Shown here in pieces: positions 59,574 to 64,000 of a stretch of DNA of 64,000 nt (the stretch's first letter is position 1; the number at the start of each line of letters is the position of its first letter). Origin of the DNA: a beta proteobacterium KB13 (GTDB lineage Bacteria > Pseudomonadota > Gammaproteobacteria > Burkholderiales > Methylophilaceae); the NCBI GenBank assembly GCA_000156155.1, contig DS995299.1, forward strand, positions 64,390-128,389. The letters are read 5' to 3'. The position numbers and the translations under genes are program-made. The notes under the pieces are model-generated. The model was given only the letters and a program-made list of their open reading frames with translations. It had not been told where the DNA came from and searched no databases.

Positions 59574-59602
59574 TTGATGAAAAAGAGTGAATTTGTTATC
59601 AT
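59574..59602 (+). promoter_or_regulatory. Candidate rpoD promoter
   Basis: TTGATG at 59574-59579 and TATCAT at 59597-59602, 17 bases apart, in the 104-base gap between dnaG and rpoD. It would give a leader of about 32 bases. Suggests that rpoD has its own housekeeping promoter besides read-through from rpsU. Confidence 0.5.
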
Positions 59603-59640
59603 GTCGGGTCGTTCTGTTAATTAATTTAAGGCGTTCACGC

Positions 59641-61617
59641 ATGGGAAGACCAAGAAAAAATCCTGAAGAAAAAGTTACTCCTAAAAGAACAAGAAAACCT
59701 CGTGTCAAAAAGCTAAAAGATTTATATCTGGATGAGGCTTCCAATCCGAAAGAAGCTGAAAATAGAAGAAATCAGCTAAAAGCGTTAATCATCTTAGGTA
59801 AAGAGCGCGGTTACCTGACACATGCTGAGATTAATGACCACCTTCCTGATGAGATATCTGAAACTGATCAAGTTGACGAAATTATTTCTATCATCCATGA
59901 CATGGGTATTCGAACCTATGACGAAGCTCCAGATGCAGAGAATTTATTAATGGATGACGCGCCTGCTCCTGTTACTGACGAAGAGGCAGCAGAAGAAGCA
60001 GAACAAGCACTAGCTACTGTTGATTCAGAGTTTGGAAGAACGACAGACCCTGTGCGTATGTATATGCGTGAAATGGGTAAGGTGGGCTTGCTTGATAAAA
60101 AAGAAGAAATTGAAATTGCGAAAAGAATTGAAGATGGTTTAAAGCATATGGTTCAAGCCATTTCTGCATGCCCAGGCATTATTGATGATCTGATGCAAAT
60201 GGGCGACAAAGTAAAGGCTGGAGAATTATCAGTGGATGAATTTGTTGATGGTTTAATTGATCTAGAAGCTGAGAAGGAGCTAAATGAAGCTCTTGGCATG
60301 AATGATGAAGAGTCATCAAATGATGAAGATAGTGATGACGATGACGATGATTCATCATCTTCTGATAATGGCAAAGGCATGTCTTCAGAAGATTTGAAAG
60401 TGTTAACAGAGGAAGTTCTGAAAAGATTTAAAAAAATCAAATCGGCGCATAAAAAGTTAGCCTTATTGCGTGAGAAAAATAAATGGATTGATGACCCAGA
60501 ATATAAGAAACACCAGGATGTTATACAAAAAGAATTACTTAATTTTAGATTTTCAGCAAAGCTTGTTGAAGTCTTGTGTGACAAAGTTAGACAATTCATT
60601 GTACAGATTCGCTCACATGAGCGCACCATCATGGATTTTTGTGTAAACCAAGCTAAGATGCCTCGAACCCAATTCATCAAATCATTCCCTGGAAATGAAA
60701 CCAGTAATAAATGGTTAAAAGTAGAGATGAAGGAAGATAAACCTTACATTGCTAATCTAGAAAAATTAAAACATTCAATTTTAGACCAACAGGCGCAATT
60801 AAAAGAATTAGAAGACTTCTCTGGTATCCCTATTAAAAATTTCAAAGAGATTAACCGCCAAATGACGAGAGGGGAATCTCGAGCAAGACGTGCAAAAAGA
60901 GAAATGATTGAAGCTAACTTACGTTTAGTGATTTCAATAGCTAAGAAATATACCAATCGTGGCTTGCAATTTTTAGATCTTATCCAAGAAGGAAATATTG
61001 GTTTAATGAAAGCAGTCGATAAATTTGAGTATCGAAGAGGTTACAAATTTTCAACCTATGCGACATGGTGGATTCGTCAGGCGATCACTCGATCTATTGC
61101 CGATCAGGCAAGAACTATCCGTATCCCAGTGCATATGATTGAGACCATCAATAAGATGAATCGAATTTCAAGACAGATTTTACAAGCAACAGGCCAAGAA
61201 CCAGAGCCAGCAGTCTTGGCTGAGAAAATGGAAATGCCTGAAGATAAAATCAGAAAAATTCTAAAAATATCTAAGGAGCCAATTTCAATGGAGACTCCAA
61301 TCGGTGATGATGAGGATTCTCACTTAGGCGATTTTATTGAAGATCTTGGTACATTGACTCCAGATGATGCTGCAGTTTATTCAAGTCTTCGAAATGTGAC
61401 TAATGAAATTCTTGAAGGGCTTACTCCAAGAGAAGCTAAAGTATTGAGAATGAGGTTTGGTATTGAAATGAATACAGACCATACGTTAGAAGAAGTTGGA
61501 AAGCAGTTCGATGTTACTCGTGAAAGAATCCGTCAGATTGAAGCTAAAGCTTTAAGAAAGCTTAGACACCCAACAAGGTCTGATCGATTAAAAAGCTTTC
61601 TTGAAGGAAAAGATTAA
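59641..61617 (+). CDS. rpoD: RNA polymerase primary sigma factor RpoD (sigma-70)
   Basis: 658 aa from the ATG at 59641. The open frame extends to 59587 but that part contains the promoter and is not coding. Region 1.1 at about 40-100, region 1.2 near [17 protein letters not shown], an acidic run of Asp/Glu/Ser at about residues 222-244 in the non-conserved region, region 2 with [39 protein letters not shown] (in parts) and region 4 with [28 protein letters not shown] (in parts). It ends 8 bases before a tRNA gene. Confidence 0.97.
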
Positions 61618-61625
61618 TCTAAATA

Positions 61626-61702
61626 GGGCCTATAGCTCAGTTGGTTAGAGCAGAGGACTCATAATCCTTTGGTCCCTGGTTCGAGTCCAGGTGGGCCCAC
61701 CA
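61626..61702 (+). tRNA. tRNA with CAU anticodon, probably tRNA-Ile2 (lysidine-modified)
   Basis: 77 bases including an encoded CCA. Acceptor GGGCCTA pairs with TGGGCCC, D-arm GCTC/GAGC, anticodon arm GAGGA-CTCATAA-TCCTT, T-arm CCTGG-TTCGAGT-CCAGG. The anticodon is CAT, so it is Met or Ile2. The C4-G69 and C5-G68 acceptor pairs are those recognised by TilS in E. coli tRNA-Ile2, and the sequence is far from initiator tRNA. It begins 8 bases after the rpoD stop, so it is probably processed from the rpoD transcript. Confidence 0.95.
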
Positions 61703-61713
61703 ATAAAAACAAG

Positions 61714-61739
61714 GCTTACAGTTCATGTAAGCTTTTTTT
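61714..61739 (+). terminator. Intrinsic terminator after the tRNA
   Basis: gcttaca / tgtaagc stem (61714-61732) with a gttca loop and a following run of seven T. It would end the rpoD-tRNA transcript. Confidence 0.82.
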
Positions 61740-62057
61740 ATTTCTACTTTATCAAATTAAGACAATAAAAATTTTATTTAAATTAAAACATAGTTAAGAT
61801 GTTAATAAGATTATTGACTAGCCTATTTGAACCGCCGGCTAGTCAGGCGGTGTTTCAGGGAAGTAAGCGGTTATCATATTAAACACCAGATAACCATGGT
61901 GCTGGAGGTAATGAAGAGAGAATTAAGCCTCCTTAATTGATAGATGAGTGAGTTTAAAAAAGTCAGGAAAAAAATTTCATTCATTAATTGAATAAAAAAT
62001 CCTGACCTATTGAGTATTGCTGCATCACATTTATATAAGAGTAAAACCGGAGGAAGA
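61740..62057. other. Gene-free region with interleaved inverted repeats (possible structured RNA)
   Basis: No convincing gene of normal length. 61740-61815 is AT-rich. From 61816 to 61938 there is a dense chain of exact complementary blocks: gactagcc 61816-61823 with ggctagtc 61837-61844; accgcc 61831-61836 with ggcggt 61846-61851; ggtgttt 61849-61855 with aaacacc 61881-61887; ggttatc 61869-61875 with gataacc 61889-61895; aattaag 61921-61927 with cttaatt 61932-61938. Neighbouring helices interleave and exclude one another. The rest, to 62057, holds an inverted repeat (61962-61968 with 62000-62006) and an ECF-type promoter candidate. GC content in the core is clearly above the surroundings. 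Confidence 0.5.
61998..62026 (+). promoter_or_regulatory. Candidate ECF promoter of the sigma gene
   Basis: aatcctgacct (from 61998) and attgctgcatc (ending 62026) match, apart from a one-base spacer change and one substitution, a block upstream of the Sel1 gene at 63378. The ATG lies 31 bases downstream. The -35-like tcctgac is also the right arm of an inverted repeat. A shared motif before a sigma gene and a nearby secreted-protein gene suggests autoregulation; the motif is inferred from two copies only. Confidence 0.42.
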
Positions 62058-62636
62058 ATGCTTGCAGGGGAAGTGCTAGAGCAATTGAAAGACAAAGCAA
62101 AGCTAAATGTTGCCTATAAGGCTCTAAATAACTTTTTTTATAAAAAAGCCTTCAGGTTTTTATTGAGTAATAAATTAAATGATGAGGATGCCGATGATGT
62201 GATTCAAGAGACTTTTATTAAGGTATTTGAAAAGATCGACACCCTTAAAGAGGACGGTAAATTTGAATCATGGTTGTGGCAGATTCTAAGAAATAATATG
62301 AATGAGTTTTATCGTAAATCAAATAGAAAAAATGATGTCATGTTTAGTGTTGCATCAGAAGACCTTGAAAATCTTAAGGGCGATGAAGATGTGAAGGTCA
62401 GTCATGATCAAAAATATGATGATCAGCAAAGTTGTATTGAGGAAAAATTTAAATTATTTAAAGAAGAGATGCCAGATCGCCACTATGCCATTAATTTACA
62501 AAAAGATGGTGTGCCTGTTAAAGATATTTCCATCAGAATAGGCCGCTCTTATGCAGCAACTAAAGAATTTTTATCTCAATCAAAAAAGAAATTGATTCCA
62601 TACTTTGAAGAATGTAAAGAAATTGAAACATCATGA
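62058..62636 (+). CDS. ECF-like sigma-70 family sigma factor
   Basis: 192 aa from the ATG at 62058, which has a GGAGG ribosome-binding site 4 bases away; an upstream in-frame TTG at 62010 would start inside the candidate promoter. Region 2 reads LSNKLNDEDADDVIQETFIKVFEKI followed by KFESWLWQILRNNMNEFYRKSNRK (each in parts). Region 4 reads MPDRHYAINLQKDGVPVKDISIRIGRSYAATKEFLSQSKKKL (in parts), a helix-turn-helix. There is no region 3, so it belongs to group 4. Its stop overlaps the ATG of the next gene by 4 bases. The stimulus is unknown. Confidence 0.85.
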   Translation: MLAGEVLEQLKDKAKLNVAYKALNNFFYKKAFRFLLSNKLNDEDADDVIQETFIKVFEKIDTLKEDGKFESWLWQILRNNMNEFYRKSNRKNDVMFSVASEDLENLKGDEDVKVSHDQKYDDQQSCIEEKFKLFKEEMPDRHYAINLQKDGVPVKDISIRIGRSYAATKEFLSQSKKKLIPYFEECKEIETS

Positions 62637-63316
62637 GTGAACAACAAATACAAGATAACTTTATTAGTGTATTGCAAGGTAAAAAAGTACCAGGCATGGA
62701 TCCTAAGTGGCGTGTGATCGCTCGTATGGTTCGAAATATTATGATTAAGGAAGATAACCTTGAAGAGTATTTGATGGAGAGACGTCAACAAGCCTTTGAG
62801 AAAAGAATAGGTAAAGTTCTACAAGATCGTTATCTTATACCAAAGCAAAAAAGATCATTTGCATATAAGAATTGGATTCTTGCATTTATTCTTGGTGCCT
62901 CAGGGGTCTACGCCACCAAAGAATATGTGCATTTCACCAAACCACTTCCATTAGAACTGACACACACCCAGGAAGAATTAGAAGGACAGGATCCCAAATT
63001 GTTTTGGAAGAAATGGTTTAACAACGGCACTTTCATTATGTTTGGCCATCGTTATTTGACTAATCCTCTGCCAACAAATATTGGTGGCTGTGATCCAGAT
63101 CAAATCGATCTCGAAGGATGTTTAAAATTACTTAAAAAATATCCCAGTAACCCCAACCTTTTATTTAATATAGGCTTGATTTACCACATGGGTTTTGATG
63201 GGGAAGAAAATCATGACAAAGCAATTGAGTTCTATAAGCGCGCTGCCGCGTTGGGGAATGATTATGGTCGCCTGAATTATGAATATTTAATTAATCAAAA
63301 CAGTAAAAAGAAATAA
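62633..63316 (+). CDS. Single-pass membrane protein with Sel1-like repeat; putative anti-sigma partner
   Basis: 227 aa, function unknown. Residues 1-75 are charged and probably cytoplasmic; NWILAFILGASGVYATKEYV at about 80-99 is a likely membrane helix with a basic KQKR on its N-side, giving an N-in topology. The rest is probably periplasmic, with FWKKWFNNGTF at 124-134 and Sel1-type text (NIGLIYHMGFDG, HDKAIEFYKRAAALGN). Coupled by ATGA to the sigma gene, with a soluble end and a membrane helix: the layout of an anti-sigma factor. No zinc-binding anti-sigma motif is visible, so this is inference. Confidence 0.72.
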   Translation: MSEQQIQDNFISVLQGKKVPGMDPKWRVIARMVRNIMIKEDNLEEYLMERRQQAFEKRIGKVLQDRYLIPKQKRSFAYKNWILAFILGASGVYATKEYVHFTKPLPLELTHTQEELEGQDPKLFWKKWFNNGTFIMFGHRYLTNPLPTNIGGCDPDQIDLEGCLKLLKKYPSNPNLLFNIGLIYHMGFDGEENHDKAIEFYKRAAALGNDYGRLNYEYLINQNSKKK

Positions 63317-63355
63317 TTCCTGACCTTTAATCATTGCTACATCTATCTAATGTAG
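63316..63355 (+). promoter_or_regulatory. Candidate ECF promoter and overlapping inverted repeat before the Sel1 gene
   Basis: attcctgacct from 63316 and attgctacatc ending 63343 resemble the block upstream of the sigma gene. The inverted repeat ctacat-ctatcta-atgtag (63337-63355) overlaps its -10-like end. A start near 63350 would give a leader of about 28 bases to the ATG at 63378. Confidence 0.4.
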
Positions 63356-63377: not shown

Positions 63378-64000
63378 ATGAAAATTAAAACAATTGCTGC
63401 AGTGCTTGCTAATGTATTCTTGATCTCGAATGCTGTTACAGCGAATGAGATTCAAGCACCAGAAGTTAAAGTCCAAGAAAAGAATCCGTGTAAAGAAAAA
63501 ACCTTTTGGCAAACTAATTTTACCAATGGGCAATTTAATGGCTTCTATTCACAAATGACCAATAGCGTCATTAGCAATGCTCAACATTTATTTGCCAATC
63601 ATTATTTTGAAGGATCAATTTTAAACAAAGATTTAGCTAGAGCGTTAGACCTTTATCAGCGAGCACACAATCGTGGCAATCAAGATTCGACAGCAAAATT
63701 AGGGTTAGTGTATCGCTATGGCTTGTCAACTATTAAAGATTATCAAAAAGCAATTGAGTATTATCAGTCCATCGCAGCCAATTATCCAGAGGCTCAATTC
63801 AACCTTGGTTTGATGCACCGCTATGGCATTGGAACAGCATCCAACCAACAGCAAGCATTTCAATACTTCAAACAAGCTGCATCCAATCAAGTTGTTGCAA
63901 AAAACAATTGTGAAGTAGAAGTGGAAGGCATGGCGGAAGCTCAATTTCAGTTGGGACAGATGTTTCGTTATGGTTTAGGTGTTGAGAAAAATTTAGATCA
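63378..64000 (+). CDS. Secreted Sel1-repeat protein (C-terminus cut by window end)
   Basis: 207 residues are visible and the frame is still open at the window end. An N-terminal signal peptide MKIKTIAAVLANVFLISNAVTA-like segment would be cleaved near residue 22. After FWQTNFTNGQF (about 43-53) come Sel1/TPR-like repeats: LARALDLYQRAHNRGNQDSTAKLGLVYRYGL, YQKAIEYYQSIAANYPEAQFNLGLMHRYGIG and AEAQFQLGQMFRYGLGVEKNLD (each in parts). The FWxxxFxNGxF motif is shared with the membrane protein next door. Sel1 proteins act as adaptors; its target is unknown. The gap 63317-63377 holds the candidate ECF promoter. Confidence 0.82.
   Translation, partial: MKIKTIAAVLANVFLISNAVTANEIQAPEVKVQEKNPCKEKTFWQTNFTNGQFNGFYSQMTNSVISNAQHLFANHYFEGSILNKDLARALDLYQRAHNRGNQDSTAKLGLVYRYGLSTIKDYQKAIEYYQSIAANYPEAQFNLGLMHRYGIGTASNQQQAFQYFKQAASNQVVAKNNCEVEVEGMAEAQFQLGQMFRYGLGVEKNLD

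Follow-up and report, generated by a model that had tools for sequence, protein, structure and literature searches.

The element analysed here lies in the genome of the beta proteobacterium KB13, a methanol-using marine bacterium (1.33 Mb, one contig), within a stretch of 64,000 nucleotides that we refer to as the window. To its left are an rpoD-type sigma factor gene (59587-61617, plus strand) and, between that gene and the element, a tRNA gene with anticodon CAT (61626-61702, plus strand). A pattern scan also found a terminator-like stem with a T-rich tail on the minus strand (stem 61714-61732, site 61711-61735), which is a candidate for the 3' limit of a minus-strand transcript in this genome. 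To the right is an ECF-type sigma-70 family gene (62058-62636, plus strand), which has its ATG at 62058 after a GGAGG and matches Pfam Sigma70_r2 (1.3e-13) and TIGR02937 (50.1 bits, cut-off 42.9). The second gene of this operon (62633-63316, plus strand) encodes a protein with a Sel1 repeat, possibly an anti-sigma factor, and the order of the two genes is kept in orthologous operons; a further Sel1-repeat gene starts downstream at 63378 on the same strand.

The surroundings of the element differ between relatives. A minus-strand ORF of 118 amino acids, which has no Pfam family above cut-off, is found beside the element in genome G006 (L008 1020-1376) and between the tRNA gene and the element in G012 (L007 1021-1377), whereas in the window genome it lies downstream of the Sel1 genes (G000, contig C1, 129086-129439), pointing to local rearrangement around the sigma operon. 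In G006 the region upstream of the element (L008 1-942) contains an ORF that by eye is integrase-like, together with a 103-amino-acid ORF giving weak winged-helix matches, which suggests integration near the tRNA gene.

Inverted repeats in the intergenic region

The first-pass annotation had described, between 61816 and 61938, at least five exact complementary pairs of 6-8 bases, and we found six: 61816-61823 with 61837-61844 (pair 1, 8 bases), 61831-61836 with 61846-61851 (pair 2, 6 bases), GGTGTTT/AAACACC at 61849-61855 and 61881-61887 (pair 3, 7 bases), 61869-61875 with 61889-61895 (pair 4, 7 bases), and two further pairs, 61830-61835 with 61867-61872 (6 bases) and 61921-61927 with 61932-61938 (7 bases). 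The GGAGG/CCTCC complement that is also present comprises 5 bases and so falls below the 6-base threshold. The pairs interleave as had been described, 1 with 2 and 3 with 4, and bases 61849-61851 are common to helices 2 and 3. That such a density exceeds expectation was borne out, as only 1 of 1000 dinucleotide shuffles gave an equal pair count, and likewise 1 of 1000 gave an equal number of pairs with at least three G/C. Within the window, 110 of 1558 tiles held as many pairs of any composition, and as many GC-containing pairs were seen in a single tile of the 1558, which overlaps the element (at 61788). The local rise in GC content is also real (0.447 in the element against 0.348 in the window), and no Rfam 15 family reached its gathering threshold, in keeping with the earlier remark that no known riboswitch or ncRNA consensus fits. 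Nested folding alone was unremarkable, with z-scores of -1.5 for the plus strand and -1.7 for the minus strand.

The minus strand is predicted to form a hairpin and two H-type pseudoknots

On the minus strand the element can be folded into three consecutive structures. The first is a 5' hairpin (61904-61932) in which GGAGG (61932-61928) pairs with CCTCC (61908-61904) around a loop of about 19 bases that holds TCTCTCT. It is followed by pseudoknot 1 (61869-61901), with S1 formed by CACCA (61901-61897) and TGGTG (61888-61884), S2 by GGTTATC (61895-61889) and GATAACC (61875-61869), an L1 of 1 nt (T) and an L3 of 8 nt. Pseudoknot 2 (61815-61851) has S1 formed by ACCGCC (61851-61846) and GGCGGT (61836-61831), S2 by TGACTAGCC (61845-61837) and GGCTAGTCA (61823-61815), and an L3 of 7 nt, TCAAATA. 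The two pseudoknots are joined by a pyrimidine-rich linker, CGCTTACTTCCC (61858-61869), the first base of which is common to pseudoknot 1; it is identical in all five genomes that carry the element and is a candidate pairing seed.

An H-type pseudoknot is defined by the order S1-L1-S2-S1'-L3-S2', a short L1 and an L3 long enough to cross S1, and this is the arrangement seen on the minus strand, where the lengths S1/L1/S2/.../L3 are 6/0/9/0/7 for pseudoknot 2 and 5/1/7/0/8 for pseudoknot 1. When both strands of the 64-kb window were scanned with an H-type descriptor, seven matches were obtained, the best two being the pseudoknots of the element on the minus strand; pseudoknot 2 scored 24 and pseudoknot 1 scored 18, compared with a maximum of 19 in 100 shuffled strands, and two matches within 60 nt occurred in 2 of the 100 shuffled strands. 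On the plus strand the loop crossing a helix of 7-9 bp would have only 0-1 nt, which is infeasible in H-type geometry, and both helices therefore cannot coexist there. We conclude that the presence of canonical tandem H-type pseudoknots on the minus strand only is, as a structural prediction, well supported.

Conservation of the element in five genomes

When 149 genomes were searched at the DNA level, the element was matched over its full length in G003 (98% identical) and G001 (97%), and at 78% over approximately 170 bases in G006 and G012. Exact pattern matches in genome contigs numbered only two, both in close relatives, and two element patterns had no match in viral contigs. In all five genomes with the element, that of the window included, it stands directly upstream of the sigma gene. 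It can be seen from the five-sequence alignment that TGACTAGCC/GGCTAGTCA, GGTTATC/GATAACC and GGAGG/CCTCC are invariant, so that GGAGG/CCTCC shows no covariation, and three of the five helices lack any variation at this level. The CACCA/TGGTG stem, which was absent from the earlier list of repeats, carries two compensatory pairs (in G006 and G012), and the CCGCC/GGCGG stem of pseudoknot 2 carries one compensatory pair in G012 and one mismatch in G006, giving three compensatory pairs in total. As five sequences are few, the main weight for the structure comes from the more distant relatives described below.

The GGTGTTT/AAACACC helix behaved differently. In G006 and G012, the more distant two of the relatives, most of it is lost and never more than two adjacent pairs stay in a row; across the five sequences 80% of its cells are paired, a value that 29 of 500 shuffles equalled; we therefore rejected it as an alternative fold. 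Compensatory change, which had been put forward as the test of the proposed RNA, was found for the CACCA/TGGTG and CCGCC/GGCGG stems. The proposal of a structured, pseudoknotted RNA is supported, but its switch-like part, a choice between helices 1 plus 3 and 2 plus 4, is not, given that helix 3 is not conserved and that on the minus strand helices 1 and 2, like helix 4 and the CACCA/TGGTG stem, combine into an ordinary H-type pseudoknot and so are compatible rather than mutually exclusive. The assumption of the plus strand is probably wrong as well, since promoter, loop geometry and relatives all indicate the minus strand. We also discarded a leader peptide starting on the plus strand at ATG 61896 or 61911, as these frames are not conserved and meet early stops in G006 and G012. 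On the minus strand a frame of seven codons, ATGGTTATCTGG..TGA (61896-61873), lies in pseudoknot 1 and is uninterrupted in each of the five sequences, which conservation of the helices may be enough to explain.

Promoter-like sites around the element

Three sites of CCTGAC type flank the element and the sigma operon. One lies on the minus strand (61943-61967; CCTGAC 61967-61962, N15, CATC 61946-61943) and points leftward into the element, as a divergent ECF-type promoter-like site would; a start of the RNA near 61936, at the 5' hairpin, is predicted from its position. The second (62001-62026, plus strand, CCTGAC-N16-CATC) precedes the sigma gene, and the third (63319-63343, plus strand, CCTGAC-N15-CATC) precedes the Sel1 gene starting at 63378. 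Each of the five genomes with the element has all three sites, with spacers that differ between the two lineages, and whole-genome searches with the promoter pattern gave 6-13 matches per genome, compared with 0-1 for a control.

These sites bear on whether the element could act from the plus strand, as a switch or other regulatory RNA within the sigma gene's leader. It is indeed conserved upstream of the sigma gene and on its strand, and in G006 a sigma-70-like promoter pattern is found upstream of it. However, each of the five genomes has the sigma gene's promoter-like site between the element and that gene, so that the element is probably outside the leader of the sigma mRNA. Together with the 0-1 nt loops that exclude both helices at once, the loss of the alternative helix, and the divergent orientation of the RNA relative to the operon in many relatives, this makes a plus-strand leader very unlikely. 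Instead, the RNA is probably made from the opposite strand and controlled by the sigma factor.

A related RNA is widespread in the genus

A covariance model built from the five sequences (R1) was run against 299 genomes and returned nothing convincing beyond the five true matches; of the weaker matches, one (G026, L072) was inside a coding gene and those in G070, G171, G175, G184 and G216 showed poor pairing. R1 also gave nothing convincing at 13 loci with diverged sigma genes. Inspection by eye upstream of diverged sigma orthologues, taking the strand from the promoter motif, did however reveal a related RNA, which consists of a hairpin with UUCCUCCUGU in its loop, followed by CCGC and a 3' H-type pseudoknot, and which is placed at the same site as the window element, or near it, in the orthologous operons of other species. 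When 13 of these relatives were aligned, 95.4% of cells were paired, and 9 pairs and 26 cells were changed on both sides; against 500 shuffles this was equalled in none for cells and score and in 2 for pairs. G-U cells numbered 12 and A-C cells 2, which favours the RNA-sense strand.

A second model (R2) found the RNA in 18 of the 31 genomes of the genus, and in 20 with laxer filters, which added weak matches in G014 and G016 as well as a second match in G018. Matches outside the R2 alignment were those in G009, G021, G025, G027 and G029 and second copies in G015, G019 and G026, and the RNA of L043, missed by the pattern search, was recovered by R2 (L125). A third match in G029 (L136) looks like an ordinary terminator and was set aside. 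Among the 399 genomes searched, R2 gave only three weak matches outside the genus (G257, G264 and G337), which we judged to be chance, L129 and L131 being without the core. L130 around 1501-1573 (G337, a member of the same taxonomic order) has a weak R2 match with UUCCUCCUGU and a CCGC segment, and is possibly a distant relative or again chance. The loci of 14 relatives had no Rfam match at E 0.5.

At four loci that were read in detail, the gene after the sigma gene is of the same type as the second gene of the window operon; a third, Sel1-like gene is in view at L041 and L042, and L122 and L123 end before that point. With the operon called present at a sigma match of E <=1e-12, and with G029 (2.7e-12) added because its sigma fragment adjoins the RNA, 19 of the 31 genomes have the operon, and R1 or R2 finds the RNA in 18 of them. 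In the one remaining genome, G016, 433 bases of contig precede the sigma match (L047). The 12 genomes without the operon comprise five with the RNA (G009, G010, G021, G025 and G028) and seven with neither (G002, G007, G008, G011, G013, G014 and G020), G014 having the weak match under lax filters. At L036, L037, L039 and L041 a run like GATAATGATAATGATTCGCA, which we take to resemble a Fur box, is found downstream of the RNA.

The CCTGAC-N-C(A/G)TC motif lies directly upstream of the divergent RNA copies in all five genomes of the window lineage and of 8 of 10 other divergent copies, the two without a proper motif (G019 and G030) having degenerate versions. By a pattern that was written after the sites had been seen, 16 of the 18 RNA copies that are divergent or in leaders have the motif directly upstream, and none of the 8 intergenic copies does, against a background of 7 of 6394 60-mers of the window.

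The orthologous RNAs also speak to a role at the level of DNA, in which the palindromes would serve regulator binding or recombination beside the tRNA gene. The element does adjoin that gene, and G006 and G012 have extra genes between the two; yet it stays with the sigma operon and not with the tRNA gene, and the orthologous RNAs, which occur at other loci, show covariation with G-U pairs on one strand. We regard this explanation as the least credible of those considered.

Genes linked to the RNA

A family of 85-amino-acid proteins (L123 1242-1499; L137-L146) is encoded in 10 of the 31 genomes, and in all 10 the RNA adjoins the gene. A CCTGAC-type motif is found no more than about 120 bases upstream of each of the 10 ORFs, with the RNA in between in two cases, and all eight intergenic RNA copies follow such an ORF. 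This linkage raises the idea that the RNA is a protein-binding sponge or scaffold, for instance for the 85-amino-acid protein, with the anti-Shine-Dalgarno-like loop forming part of the binding site. There is a precedent in CcaF1, a 71-amino-acid RNA-binding protein that PMC10253847 describes as co-transcribed with the CcsR sRNAs. Against this, searches for the 85-amino-acid gene came up empty in all five window-lineage genomes and in several others that carry the RNA, and no RNA-binding domain was recognised in the protein; a sponge or scaffold thus seems unlikely.

At L118-L120, L122, L126 and L132-L135 the RNA ends just before a Shine-Dalgarno sequence and start codon, and in G006 and G012 the 118-amino-acid ORF is downstream of the element on the minus strand. 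It could be argued from this that the RNA is a cis-acting leader, the loop of which pairs with or releases the downstream ribosome-binding site, stand-alone copies being remnants. However, the RNA does not prefer its own downstream Shine-Dalgarno sequence (-9.3 kcal/mol, compared with -9.1 kcal/mol when partners are permuted, and 35% of permutations are as good), the divergent copies inspected have no ORF directly downstream, and in the window genome the 118-amino-acid ORF is elsewhere while the element is conserved. A cis-acting leader is consequently doubtful, although less so than the other alternatives. Proteins of about 495 amino acids follow the RNA at three loci (L132 1587-3065, L126 and L135), and VIT and von Willebrand A domains were found in that of L132, the one scanned.

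Relationship of the window element to the genus RNA

The window element is like the related RNA in its operon, in the side on which it lies and in its divergent promoter, and both have a 3' H-type pseudoknot, which starts with ACCGCCTGACTAG in the window and may be compared with ACCGCCTGGCTCG in the related RNA. R2 scored the window locus at 11.9 bits (E 0.085 in 15.8 kb) and G006 at 4.2 bits, and left the window genome unmatched at E 0.01 genome-wide; in L064, L062 and L063, nevertheless, R2 matched best at the locus and strand of the element. In view of these low scores, homology rests mainly on position and architecture. UCCUCCUGU is not found in a hairpin loop of the window variant, where CCTCC is a stem arm; in place of the displayed loop this variant has a second pseudoknot and then the invariant linker CGCUUACUUCCC, and CUUCCC in the linker is its only resemblance to that loop. 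We consider it quite probable, with moderate confidence, that the window RNA is a diverged homologue of the genus-wide hairpin-pseudoknot RNA.

Discussion

Our preferred reading, to which we give a probability of roughly 0.55, is that the minus strand from 61936 to 61815 encodes a structured RNA that is driven by the adjacent ECF-type sigma factor and is a diverged version of an RNA found across the genus. Judged from sequence comparison, the structure, strand and promoter of this RNA are well supported; that it is transcribed, has targets and represses them is what we infer. The ECF-type sigma factor would transcribe the RNA from the divergent promoter, so that it accumulates when the sigma factor is active. 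It would fold into the 5' hairpin and the two consecutive H-type pseudoknots joined by the pyrimidine-rich linker, and the pseudoknots may protect and fix the RNA. An anti-Shine-Dalgarno-like segment, UUCCUCCUGU in most species and probably CUUCCC or CCUCC in the window variant, could then occlude the ribosome-binding sites of target mRNAs.

Complementarity to Shine-Dalgarno sequences is a general property of UUCCUCCUGU. The RNA did not prefer the ribosome-binding site of its own sigma gene (-14.4 kcal/mol, compared with -15.2 kcal/mol for permuted partners, and 87% of permutations were as good), and specific feedback on the sigma mRNA is therefore unsupported. Two observations count against parts of the proposed mechanism: CCTCC in the window variant is paired in the 5' hairpin, and eight copies lie between genes, so that a role in cis is conceivable.

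In the literature searched, no paper was recognised as describing the element RNA or its genus-wide family. Compact H-type pseudoknots are well known from SAM-II, preQ1, fluoride and other riboswitches; unlike these, the RNA here has no Rfam match and often no downstream gene. The RybB and MicA genes of enterobacteria are not known to be divergent from the sigma operon, and we know of no sequence or structural relation of the element RNA to them. They do provide a parallel as sRNAs under an ECF sigma factor, which for our RNA is suggested by the promoter motif; sigma-E-dependent transcription of enterobacterial sRNAs is described in PMC12249550.

CcsR RNAs carry an anti-SD-type loop motif, as does the RNA of the relatives here. 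In alphaproteobacteria, the system of CcaF1 and CcsR1-4 (CIN1, cuckoo RNAs) also has a small protein gene beside small RNAs under an alternative sigma factor, and in Rhodobacter such an operon couples the small RNA-binding protein to the CcsR sRNAs, as PMC10253847 and PMC8307010 describe it. Our system differs in that the sigma factor is of ECF type and not RpoH, the host is betaproteobacterial, the RNA contains H-type pseudoknots and it has no Rfam match. In addition, DUF1127 is not matched by the 85-amino-acid partner, for which no gene was detected in the window genome, and the promoter motif is the one common to the ECF operon and not evidently of RpoH type. A second comparison is with alpha-r14 (NfeR1), for which PMC10746234 reports an ultraconserved, unpaired anti-SD motif of CCUCCUCCC type on variable stems, and silencing by occlusion of the ribosome-binding site. 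The display of an unpaired motif is common to both, UUCCUCCUGU being in the hairpin loop of the relatives, whereas alpha-r14 has three hairpins in place of a hairpin and pseudoknot(s), is under other control and belongs to another bacterial class, and the function of the RNA described here is predicted. By analogy, the RNA would be a counterpart of CcaF1/CcsR and alpha-r14 in function, as a sigma-dependent riboregulator blocking ribosome-binding sites, and not a family member.

OM43-type bacteria are abundant, streamlined ocean methylotrophs with few known regulators. Near-complete genomes of the genus are about 1.3 Mb, and that an RNA family has been kept with one ECF sigma operon despite this size suggests that riboregulation is important in the genus. 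As a tentative extension, a riboregulatory module might be built around one ECF sigma factor in these marine methylotrophs, with the same RNA placed in several transcripts of the regulon, which would cover the divergent stand-alone, intergenic and leader copies, often beside a dedicated 85-amino-acid protein. The RNA family offers a defined RNA, a promoter and a candidate protein partner, with tandem H-type pseudoknots in what appears to be a sigma-dependent regulatory RNA. If such a module does exist, it would couple sigma activity to broad control of translation through mimicry of the anti-Shine-Dalgarno end of 16S rRNA, and the window lineage would have swapped the displayed loop for a second pseudoknot.
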